DNA of 64,000 nucleotides, taken from assembly GCF_916700565.1 (NCBI RefSeq), contig NZ_CAKAKO010000009.1, forward strand, positions 1 to 64,000. The letters are read 5' to 3'. Below, one piece after another: positions 61,575-64,000 of this stretch. The stretch's first letter is position 1; each line of letters starts with the position of its first letter. Below the pieces are notes generated by a model. It was not told the origin of the DNA. It ran no database searches and worked only from the letters and a program-made list of their open reading frames with translations. The position numbers and the translations under genes are program-made. Source of the DNA: Xenophilus sp. Marseille-Q4582. Its GTDB lineage: Bacteria; Pseudomonadota; Gammaproteobacteria; Burkholderiales; Burkholderiaceae_C.

Positions 61575-61604
61575 TTGTCAGCACGCGCCGGCGGCCCGAA
61601 TAAT
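61575..61604 (+). promoter_or_regulatory. Predicted sigma-70 promoter for the leader and AAA-M41 genes
   Basis: TTGTCA (61575-61580) is a 5/6 match to the -35 consensus, and AATAAT (61599-61604) is a fair -10, with 18 bases between. Transcription would begin near 61611, upstream of the leader ORF. Based on sequence match only. Confidence 0.42.
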
Positions 61605-61675: not shown

Positions 61676-61705
61676 ATGTCCCACTTGTTCAACCGCTTCC
61701 CCTGA
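61676..61705 (+). CDS. Nine-residue leader peptide of a putative attenuator
   Basis: The frame encodes MSHLFNRFP and ends in TGA at 61703-61705. GGAG lies at 61662-61665, 10 bases before the ATG, and can be hidden by a GCTCC/GGAGC hairpin (61650-61666) with a T-rich loop. A ribosome stopping at the end of this ORF would disrupt the hairpin that starts at 61707. Confidence 0.5.
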   Translation: MSHLFNRFP

Positions 61706-61706
61706 A

Positions 61707-61762
61707 CACGGTTCCCTGCCCCGGCTGACCGTGGTCATTCCACGTTCGGCCCAGGCGCAACG
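61707..61762 (+). promoter_or_regulatory. Attenuator region with mutually exclusive RNA structures
   Basis: CACGGT (61707-61712) pairs with ACCGTG (61728-61733), forming a hairpin whose 15-base loop contains GCCCCGGCTG. The segment GCCCCGGCTGA (61718-61728) is exactly complementary over 11 bp to TCAGCCGGGGC (61778-61788), the 3' arm of the terminator hairpin. Pairing of those two would prevent terminator formation. Confidence 0.58.
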
Positions 61763-61794
61763 AAAGCCCTGGCCTGCTCAGCCGGGGCTTTTTT
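61763..61794 (+). terminator. Intrinsic terminator ahead of the AAA-M41 genes
   Basis: AAAGCCCTGGC (61763-61773) pairs with GCCGGGGCTTT (61781-61791) in an 11-bp stem with one G-U pair and a 7-base loop, followed by six T. It lies 47 bases before the ATG of the small basic protein, in the same direction, so it must be read through for the genes to be expressed. Confidence 0.8.
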
Positions 61795-61841
61795 GCTTGG
61801 GGTCGCCGCCACGAAGGCGCGGCCCCTGAGGAACCGCACGC

Positions 61842-62081
61842 ATGAGTGCCAAGAAACGATCCCGCGCCTTCGCCGAAGGCCGGGTCAAGGCTTTGCGCCG
61901 CATGAAGCAGCCGATGGTGCTGCTCATCGAACAGACCGCGCCGCCGCGCAACCCCGTCGCCCGTGCCCTCGGCACGCGCGCCTCGGGCGCCGGCCGGCAC
62001 ATCCGCAGCCAGGGCGCGCAGCGCCGCGCCGACCGCGTGGCGTTGCTGCGCGTGGCGGCCACGAGAGGGATTGAAGAATGA
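61842..62081 (+). CDS. Small very basic protein coupled to AAA-M41 gene
   Basis: A 79-residue protein with about 19 Arg/Lys residues: N-terminus MSAKKRSRAFAEGRVKALRRM, a short hydrophobic strand MVLLIEQT (near 25-32), then Arg/Ala-rich sequence. GAGGA sits 9 bases before the ATG. The stop overlaps the start of the AAA-M41 gene (ATGA). Nucleic-acid or acidic-insert binding, or an adaptor/substrate role for the protease, are possible; I do not recognise the family. Confidence 0.7.
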   Translation: MSAKKRSRAFAEGRVKALRRMKQPMVLLIEQTAPPRNPVARALGTRASGAGRHIRSQGAQRRADRVALLRVAATRGIEE

Positions 62082-64000
62082 TGGAAACACAAGACACGAA
62101 CGCGCGGCCGCAAGAGCCGGAGATGCCGCAGAACGCCATGACGCCGGACACCGACGCCCTGCGCCGACAACTGGCCGAGCGCACGGAGCGGCTGCACACC
62201 GTGGCCGCCACGCTCAAGCAGGAGCTGTTCGGCATCGATGCCGTGATCGACCGCGTCATCGAATCGGTGCGCGCCTGGTATGTGCTGCCGCAGATCGTCA
62301 CGCGGCCGGTGATCGTCTGCCTCTGGGGCCTGACGGGCACCGGCAAGACGCAGCTGGTGCGCCGGCTCACGCAGCTGCTGGGCTTCTACGACCGCTTCGT
62401 GGAGGTGCAGATGGACGGCTTCAGCCATGGCGCCAGCCACTGGGGACCGAGCGCCATTTCGGGCATGCTGGCGCAATCGGGCGTGCCCGAAGGCGCGCCG
62501 GGTGTGCTGGTGCTGGACGAGTTCCAGCGCTACCGCACCGTCGACAAGCAGGCCAACGACGTCAAGGTGGAGCGCTACCAGGATGTCTGGGCGCTGCTCT
62601 CCGATGGCAAGCTGCCGCCGCCGCTGTCGTTGCTGGGCGAGATCGAGTCCTCGATCGCGAGCGCCGCCTACGACGCCGATCAGGCGGACGACGATGGCGA
62701 GGACGACGAAGAAGGCGAGAAGGACGGCAAGAAGAAGCCCGCGCGCAGGAAGCGCTTCCGCCTGTCGACCTGGCAGGCGGAGGAACTGCGCCGCAACCTC
62801 AAGCTGCGCGAGCCGCTCACCACCGTCATGGCCTGGTCGCCCGACGAGGTGCTGCAGCGCCTGCGCGACTTCCGCGAATCGCAACAGCACTGGGAGACGG
62901 ACTACAGCCGCCTGCTGGTCTTCGTGTGCGGCAACCTCGACGGCATGTACGAGGACATGGCCACGCGCGTGGAAGACTGCGACACCGACGCCGACGTGTT
63001 CCACGAACTCACGCGCAAGCTGTCGGTCATCGACGTGAAGAAGGCGCTGGCCGAACGCTTCCGGCCCGAGCAAATCGCGCGGCTGGGCAACAACCATGTG
63101 GTCTACCCCTCGCTGTCGCGTGCGGCCTACGAGCAGCTCATCCGCCGCGCCTGCGCGCGCTATGTGGAAGAAGCGCATGCCAGCGCGGGCGTGGGCTTCG
63201 AGCTCCACGATTCCGTCTACGCGCAGCTCTACGCGAACGGCGTGTTCCCGGCCCAGGGCACGCGGCCGCTGTTCTCGTCGGTCCATGCGATCCTGAGTGC
63301 CATGCTGGTCAACGCCGCGCTGTGGGCATTGGAGTGCGGGGCCAGCGCAGGGGAGCGCGTGCAGCTGCGCATGTGTGGCACCCAGTTGCAGGCTCGGCTG
63401 ACGCAGGCCGGTGTCATGCGCGAGCGCAGCTTCGAGGTACCGCTGGACCTGAACCAGGTGCGGCGCCGCGCGGGCGAGGACTTCCGCGCCCTGCTCGCCG
63501 TGCACGAAGCCGGCCACGGCCTGGCCTATGCCCTGCTCTTCGGCCGGCCGCCGCTGGAGATCAAGATCAATCTCGCATCCTTCGAGGGTGGCTACAACAG
63601 CTATGCCGAGCGCAAGGCCTGGTCGCGCCAGAACCTGCTCGACGGCATCGCCGTCACGCTGGCCGGCCGCGCCGCCGAACAGCTGGTGTTCGGCGAGGCG
63701 ATGTGCAGCAGCGGCGCCGAGGCCGACCTGCGCAAGGCCACGGCCAGCGCCGCACGCTTCGTGCGCCACCTGGGATTTGCCGGCCGCCTGTCGCGCACCG
63801 ACGTGACCACCGATGCCGACGACAACCTCAACACGGACATCGCGGCGACCAATGTGCCCATCGAAGCGCTGCTGGGTGAGCAGATGGCACGCGTGTCGAG
63901 CCTGCTGGACGCGCACCGCGCTTCCCTGCTGGCCGTGGTCGACGAACTGCTGGCCGCCGGGGCCATCGCCCCCATGCGCTTCGCCGAACTGCTGGGGCTG
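62078..64000 (+). CDS. Clp-type AAA+ ATPase fused to FtsH-type M41 zinc peptidase (truncated by window end)
   Basis: 641 residues are visible and the frame is still open at the edge. Residues about 25-375 form an AAA+ module: LFGIDAVIDRV, Walker A GLTGTGKT (84-91), Walker B VLVLDEF (D147, E148), sensor-like FVCGNLDG, and a ClpX/ClpB-like ERFRPEQIARL end. A charged insert (199-226, Asp/Glu then Lys/Arg) lies inside it. Residues about 450-641 form an M41 peptidase: HEAGH (476-480), LAGRAAEQLVFGE and the distal metal Asp in SGAEADLRKA (D550). Unlike FtsH, no TM helix or periplasmic domain is seen, so it is probably soluble. Confidence 0.85.
   Translation, partial: MMETQDTNARPQEPEMPQNAMTPDTDALRRQLAERTERLHTVAATLKQELFGIDAVIDRVIESVRAWYVLPQIVTRPVIVCLWGLTGTGKTQLVRRLTQLLGFYDRFVEVQMDGFSHGASHWGPSAISGMLAQSGVPEGAPGVLVLDEFQRYRTVDKQANDVKVERYQDVWALLSDGKLPPPLSLLGEIESSIASAAYDADQADDDGEDDEEGEKDGKKKPARRKRFRLSTWQAEELRRNLKLREPLTTVMAWSPDEVLQRLRDFRESQQHWETDYSRLLVFVCGNLDGMYEDMATRVEDCDTDADVFHELTRKLSVIDVKKALAERFRPEQIARLGNNHVVYPSLSRAAYEQLIRRACARYVEEAHASAGVGFELHDSVYAQLYANGVFPAQGTRPLFSSVHAILSAMLVNAALWALECGASAGERVQLRMCGTQLQARLTQAGVMRERSFEVPLDLNQVRRRAGEDFRALLAVHEAGHGLAYALLFGRPPLEIKINLASFEGGYNSYAERKAWSRQNLLDGIAVTLAGRAAEQLVFGEAMCSSGAEADLRKATASAARFVRHLGFAGRLSRTDVTTDADDNLNTDIAATNVPIEALLGEQMARVSSLLDAHRASLLAVVDELLAAGAIAPMRFAELLGL

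Follow-up and report, generated by a model that had tools for sequence, protein, structure and literature searches.

This study concerns two overlapping genes at the end of a 64,000-nucleotide stretch of DNA, hereafter the window (Xenophilus sp. Marseille-Q4582, contig NZ_CAKAKO010000009.1, positions 1 to 64,000). The second of these genes encodes a protein in which a Clp/HSP100-type AAA+ module is joined to an M41 zinc protease domain, and the first encodes a small basic protein; both lie behind a predicted promoter and leader (Table 1). The protease open reading frame (ORF) is still open at the window end, after 641 amino acids, and the genome sequence closes it at 701 amino acids, with the stop at 64183 on the window scale. 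The features reported in a preliminary description of the locus are confirmed, and most of its interpretation is supported.

Table 1. Features of the locus, in window coordinates
Feature	Position	Strand	Remarks
Sigma-70-like promoter (predicted)	61575..61604	+	TTGTCA-18-AATAAT; consensus scan 10/12, one found against a mean of 0.1 in shuffles
Leader ORF (predicted)	61676..61705	+	9 codons (MSHLFNRFP); GGAG upstream
Hairpin after the leader-ORF stop	61707..61733	+	arms CACGGT / ACCGTG; loop with conserved GCCCCGGC; arms test
Terminator-like stem with T-run, upstream of the small gene	61764..61795	+	RNAfold structure
Small basic protein	61842..62081	+	79 amino acids; stop overlaps the protease start (ATGA)
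Clp-type AAA+ / M41 protease	62078..64000	+	residues 1-641 of 701
Clp/HSP100-type AAA+ module	62159..63412	+	residues 28-445; profiles and structure superposition
Variable, acidic-then-basic part of the Walker B-to-sensor 1 insert	62645..62770	+	about residues 190-231; lower predicted local distance difference test (pLDDT) score
M41 zinc protease domain	63470..63997	+	residues 465-640; H476, E477, H480, D550

The AAA+ module and the M41 domain

The motifs of both halves are found where the preliminary description had placed them: Walker A (GLTGTGKT) at residues 84-91, Walker B (VLDE) ending at 148, an FRPE..R segment with R335, and the M41 site as HEAGH at 476-480 with the distal D550. In an alignment of 67 members, comprising the window protein, 16 of 32 close bacterial loci, and 50 of 53 viral representatives (<90% identity), eleven catalytic or motif positions are invariant in every row (K90/T91, D147/E148, N286, R335, R396, H476/E477/H480, and D550), and the motif layout is therefore not a matter of chance. 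We presume N286 to be sensor 1, R335 the arginine finger, and R396 sensor 2, by position and from the known Clp motifs. The counts hold for unbroken rows; L152 (broken frame), L157 (cut by the contig start), and L175 (short, near a contig end) were left out, and L178, below the 200-bit line, was excluded.

The assignment of the ATPase half to the Clp/HSP100 type rather than the FtsH type, also proposed at the outset, is supported by a family profile of this half, which gives 21-59 bits with the Clp proteins of the same genome and 4-10 bits with its FtsH proteins. Four large Clp-type ORFs score 25-59 bits and a fifth, L183, which we take to be ClpX, scores 21 bits. The earlier wording "ClpX/ClpB-like" is correct as regards the Clp/HSP100 clade as a whole. 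The Pfam generic AAA model is matched at 25.7 bits (cut-off 21.2), and the NCBIfam matches within this half of the window part of the protein are to ClpA, ClpB, and ClpG, with 39.3, 32.2, and 29.9 bits against curated equivalog cut-offs of 993, 1232, and 1900. The module is nearest to Clp/HSP100 by both profile and fold, and has sensor 1, arginine finger, and sensor 2 residues (roles by position), the last with a Clp-like GxRP. The string RPGR[FL]D of the FtsH second region of homology (SRH) occurs in 0/67 aligned members and is present in one FtsH of the same genome used as a control (L001; L002 gave no row). A tripeptide resembling the ClpP-docking motif, [LIVM]G[FLY], follows sensor 1 in a single member of the 67, which is not the window protein, and is found in the Clp-type protein L180 of the same genome. 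From Walker B to sensor 1, members of the family have 122-221 residues (median 146), compared with about 40 in the genome's Clp proteins. The acidic-then-basic ATPase insert noted in the preliminary description is real, but it is only the variable, less confidently modeled part of this family-wide insertion.

The C-terminal half belongs to Peptidase_M41 (PF01434), with 60.9 bits against a cut-off of 29.9 in a Pfam scan, as do all 17 members of alignment A1 (E 0.01 or better). A family profile of this half gives 96-97 bits with the FtsH proteins of the same genome and <1 bit with its Clp proteins, and the genome has three M41 matches in total, two in frames of FtsH size (248 and 204 bits) and one in the hybrid protease (63 bits). 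The window part of the protein nevertheless falls far short of the FtsH equivalog TIGR01241 (52.6 bits against a curated cut-off of 600), which it matches at residues 466-625 only.

No N-terminal transmembrane (TM) segment was found in the window protein by hydropathy: the best 19-residue Kyte-Doolittle mean within residues 1-120 is 1.34, whereas the maxima for the two FtsH proteins of the same genome are 2.09, at residue 20, and 2.18, at residue 112 in the open frame, in agreement with the soluble appearance first ascribed to the protein. The highest mean anywhere in the protein, 1.63 at residue 615, lies within the C-terminal helices of the M41 domain. The scan covers the full window protein; family rows are cut N-terminally, and one of them, L149, peaks internally at 2.10.

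In an AlphaFold model (pLDDT 87.9, lower in the acidic-basic insert region), the two halves superpose on Clp nucleotide-binding domains (NBDs) and on the FtsH protease domain, respectively. The fit to Clp NBDs is mostly 3.3-4.5 Å (up to 5.8) over about 270-310 residues; FtsH rows that span both domains superpose at 6.0-7.5 Å. Skd3 and ClpB-type disaggregases rank highest among the structure rows with an AAA domain alone.

It could be argued that the protein is a divergent FtsH that has lost its membrane anchor, its likeness to Clp being convergence or noise. We regard this as highly improbable, given the profile scores and Clp-type NCBIfam matches of the AAA half, an SRH string missing from the whole alignment where the Clp-like GxRP is kept, and the closer superposition of Clp NBDs than of FtsH over both domains. 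Alternatively, the chain might act as a Clp-like unfoldase or disaggregase with an M41 domain that is mainly structural or seldom used, which the ranking of Skd3 and ClpB-type proteins would favor. The HExxH motif and the distal Asp are invariant in 67/67 despite identities down to 23%, which is unexpected for an idle site, and this possibility too appears improbable. The sequence comparisons thus point to a Clp-type motor and an M41 blade on one chain, known parts in what would be a new pairing that fits the criteria of neither FtsH nor any Clp equivalog. Among the matches listed in open-access PubMed Central, none describes such a layout, an outcome that favors the preliminary description; an account elsewhere is possible.

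Two further observations concern FtsH-type genes. At L006 6346-11999 (G000 contig 3, about 296-302 kb), the genome's second gene of FtsH size (633 amino acids) shares a strand with a 483-amino-acid ORF and a 764-amino-acid Clp-type ORF, in a run that resembles mobile stress-tolerance islands. L040 (G100 contig 22), whose frame is open at the locus edge, encodes an FtsH-like protein with AAA+ and M41 parts; its long N-terminal region is response-regulator-like by eye, and it may represent a further soluble M41 layout, in this case with a motor of the FtsH type.

The leader and the small basic gene

The preliminary description gave the protease a small basic partner gene and a leader RNA of its own. 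Both are real and conserved, but the partnership is not general. Homologues of the small gene, 57-90% identical, lie upstream of the protease at 9 of the 10 close loci outside Variovorax, and no match is present at any of the 22 Variovorax loci. In a family-level sample of 299 genomes, strong matches (E < 1e-12) occur in 28. Of these, 25 are among the 31 genomes that match the protease, and three have no detected protease; weaker kin stand beside other genes.

The small protein has no Pfam or NCBIfam match up to an E value of 10. A likeness to the ribosome-rescue factor ArfA was not supported, as PF03889 matched 0/60 family genomes, including that of the window, with a positive Escherichia coli control; the reach of the model may fall short. 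A paralogue lies away from the protease at L208 2572-2796, and also at L209 and L210, in genus g250, which is probably Variovorax, as the DNA upstream at L060 is the same as at L009; at L208 it is preceded by a leader ORF of the same form and a terminator-like stem, and followed by a 263-amino-acid ORF without a Pfam or NCBIfam match. Distant kin of 53-58 amino acids, basic and with the pattern PRNPL..A..RKAG.HRKS, are encoded in genomes of the family at L211, L213, L214, L215, and L216. Those of L211, L214, and L215 were scanned and belong to no Pfam or NCBIfam family; the preceding gene is transporter-like by eye.

Leaders were examined at 27 of 34 loci, the seven omitted being copies or near-copies, together with L088 and L089. 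An ATG ORF of 7-16 codons that stops just 5' of the hairpin is present in 29/29, with a range of positions allowed and no chance control, and the sequence of its peptide is poorly conserved. Hairpin arms (24 distinct pairs) have a mean duplex energy of -12.3 with their own partner, compared with -8.7 ± 0.6 when re-dealt, and 0/2000 deals were as low; for only 8/24 pairs does the own partner rank first, and shared ancestry inflates the test. By a simple pattern, a terminator-like 3' arm with a T-run lies no more than 90 bases upstream of the small gene in 22/27 leaders, the exceptions being L007 (stem upstream of the 90 bases searched), L018, L032, L084, and L085. Applied to 28 leaders, RNAalifold gave a single 8-pair stem but not the proximal hairpin, for which the arms test was used instead; a MAFFT alignment of the hairpin seemed out of register and was not used for pair counts. 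A terminator scan of the window stretch and Rfam at gathering cut-offs in the window each returned nothing. Two phage fragments have the same cassette as the window, the Variovorax copies 0/22, and viral contigs scanned with a leader pattern gave no match. The arrangement suggests attenuation governed by translation of the leader.

Distribution, phage copies, and origin

Genome contigs contain 32 loci with close relatives of the protease; 22 are on contigs with Variovorax in the title, and the other ten are from Xenophilus, Methylibium, Rubrivivax, Ramlibacter, Polaromonas, Brachymonas, Roseateles, and Hydrogenophaga. The 31 matching genomes of the family-level sample include a partial copy (G560), one split over two frames (G438), and one genome with two copies (G433); three other genomes of the window's genus in that sample gave no match. 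An order sample (300 genomes) has a full-length copy in the window's own genome only and an M41-type match in 152, a class sample (274) has the own genome and G663, and a phylum sample (398) the own genome and G415. Matches below about 100 bits in these three samples covered the M41 part alone and were not counted, and the best few candidates per genome were scored; on this basis G663 has the only full-length copy outside family f1. A plasmid search gave a single match, to FtsH only.

An hrpA orthologue lies upstream, in divergent orientation, at 24/33 bacterial loci: 20/22 in Variovorax, where the two loci lacking it contain little upstream DNA, and 4/11 elsewhere, including the window. The position of the gene is thus settled in Variovorax and variable in the other genera. 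Directly downstream of the window's protease and convergent with it is a large ORF (L004 7263-10628; 64262-67627 on the window scale) that contains an extended threonine-proline repeat and by eye resembles an autotransporter.

The patchy occurrence (31/299, with none in the three congeners), the ATGA overlap, and carriage by phages could also be explained if the small basic protein and the protease formed a mobile toxin-antitoxin or defense unit without a role in proteostasis. Weak PADLOC matches in the AAA half (PDC-M37B, 2.9e-5; DolB, 3.7e-4) point the same way, but they span the P-loop region alone and look like shared AAA+ homology. As the hrpA synteny marks a settled gene, at least in Variovorax, and the copies there have no small gene, we consider a unit of this kind improbable.

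The same combination of Clp-type motor and M41 domain appears, from its sequences, to be encoded by many large phages as well, a feature not visible in the preliminary description. A first scan of IMG/VR found 12 loci. When a mixed alignment was used in a second scan, 70 were obtained, including 69 above 200 bits and 53 that are distinct at the 90% level; 24/70 of the contigs are 200-548 kb long. Ten neighbors tested, one per recurrent cluster, include a Dda-like helicase, RNA and DNA ligases, a Thg1-like protein, a homing endonuclease, and an IS605-type transposase. Terminase_6N was detected in 13/37 records tested, among them records of 378,912, 385,394, and 296,594 bp, whose copies are 40-43% identical to that of the window. 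The nearest viral copies (52-53% identical) are on two short contigs, each next to a gene on the opposite strand, which encodes a phage capsid protein in one case and an SU10 adaptor in the other. Among named phages, 11 Pseudomonas phages gave FtsH-type matches by protein, and none matched by DNA.

In a midpoint-rooted whole-protein tree, 22 Burkholderiales rows stand on one side of a branch (93), among viral rows, which as labeled include the bacterial locus L100. In an M41 tree rooted on 21 FtsH sequences, a branch with a Shimodaira-Hasegawa-like approximate likelihood ratio test (SH-aLRT) value of 99 separates the hybrid family from FtsH, as expected from the separate evolutionary pairing of unfoldase and M41 peptidase first suggested for this locus. 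The basal rows of the family are viral, and 17 Burkholderiales rows with L109 form a clade (100) within a set of 26 (85) that has eight further viral rows; L100 belongs to no group here. Both trees are quick ones, with long rows flagged. The trees favor, without proving, descent of the now chromosomal Burkholderiales gene from a gene of large phages.

Conversely, the gene may have arisen in bacteria and been picked up by large phages. G663, from another gammaproteobacterial family, has a divergent full-length chromosomal copy (L184 5115-7025, contig 43) between genes that we read as hisF-like and hisE-like, and the M41 tree has an uncertain root. As both trees put the Burkholderiales clade among viral rows, the FtsH-rooted one has a viral base, and G663 is alone outside family f1, we judge a bacterial origin unlikely.

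Proposed mechanism and comparison with known systems

We consider it likely that the gene encodes a soluble, ATP-dependent, single-chain unfoldase-protease that was acquired from phage. In sequence and model, a complete Clp/HSP100-type AAA+ module is fused to a complete M41 domain with all catalytic residues kept. Judged by its parts, the protein should work as an AAA+ protease built like FtsH but driven by a Clp motor. The chain would assemble into a hexamer, whose Clp-type ring would unfold the substrate and thread it directly into the M41 chamber, so that neither ClpP nor a membrane anchor would be needed. Outside Variovorax, expression could proceed from a phage-like cargo cassette of promoter, translated leader, attenuator-like stem, small basic protein, and protease, with leader translation setting read-through and the ATGA overlap coupling the small protein to the protease. 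The small protein might most simply be an adaptor or a substrate. More tentatively, it could be speculated that a further AAA+ protease family was built in large phages, by the joining of a Clp-type ring to an M41 protease, and captured by Burkholderiales in a cassette with a leader that senses ribosome behavior and a small protein that delivers substrates.

Several observations weigh against this interpretation. Whole FtsH chains are at the top of both structure-search lists, because FtsH spans both domains. Threading would be expected to involve an aromatic residue in the pore loop, which a loose pattern finds in 55/67 members and not in 12. Linkage to the small gene is incomplete, as 6/31 protease-positive genomes have no strong match to it and G439, G521, and G556 have it where no protease was detected in the 7-8 kb read. 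Phage identity is drawn from IMG/VR classing and from terminase in 13/37 records; no terminase was found in the other 24, records may be incomplete, and L088 and L089 are 15-kb fragments. Finally, the family as a whole joins a long outgroup row, FtsH_L040, where the M41 tree is rooted; this, with the long branches, leaves room for an early transfer from bacteria to phage.

The known AAA+ proteases, among them FtsH, Lon, HslUV, and the Clp proteases, are few in kind, and M41 domains are not known behind motors of other than FtsH type. A Clp-M41 chain in nature would mean that motor and blade are exchangeable in evolution, and would offer a soluble single-chain system for studying the coupling of ring and protease. 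It would also suggest that large phages carry a degradation machine of their own for host or phage proteins, and the conserved catalytic residues make the protease directly testable.

The hybrid resembles FtsH and the m-AAA and i-AAA proteases in its C-terminal M41 domain, which has HEAGH and the distal Asp, in the presence of AAA+ and protease on one chain, and in a predicted stacked hexamer. It differs from FtsH in its Clp/HSP100-type AAA+ module, the lack of a detected N-terminal TM segment and of the SRH string, and the position of its M41 domain across a branch from the 21 FtsH sequences. Similarity to the second AAA+ modules of ClpA, ClpB, and ClpC, to ClpX, and to Skd3 lies in the AAA+ fold with lid, the sensor 1 Asn, the arginine finger, and the GxRP sensor 2. 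Unlike Clp proteins and Skd3, the hybrid has a single AAA+ ring with the protease in the same chain and almost never a ClpP-docking-like tripeptide, and its Walker B-to-sensor 1 stretch is far longer than that of the genome's Clp proteins. Like Lon, it would be a soluble AAA+ protease on a single chain; Lon has a Ser-Lys protease domain, whereas the hybrid has a zinc M41 domain, and its NCBIfam Lon match has an E value of only 0.082.
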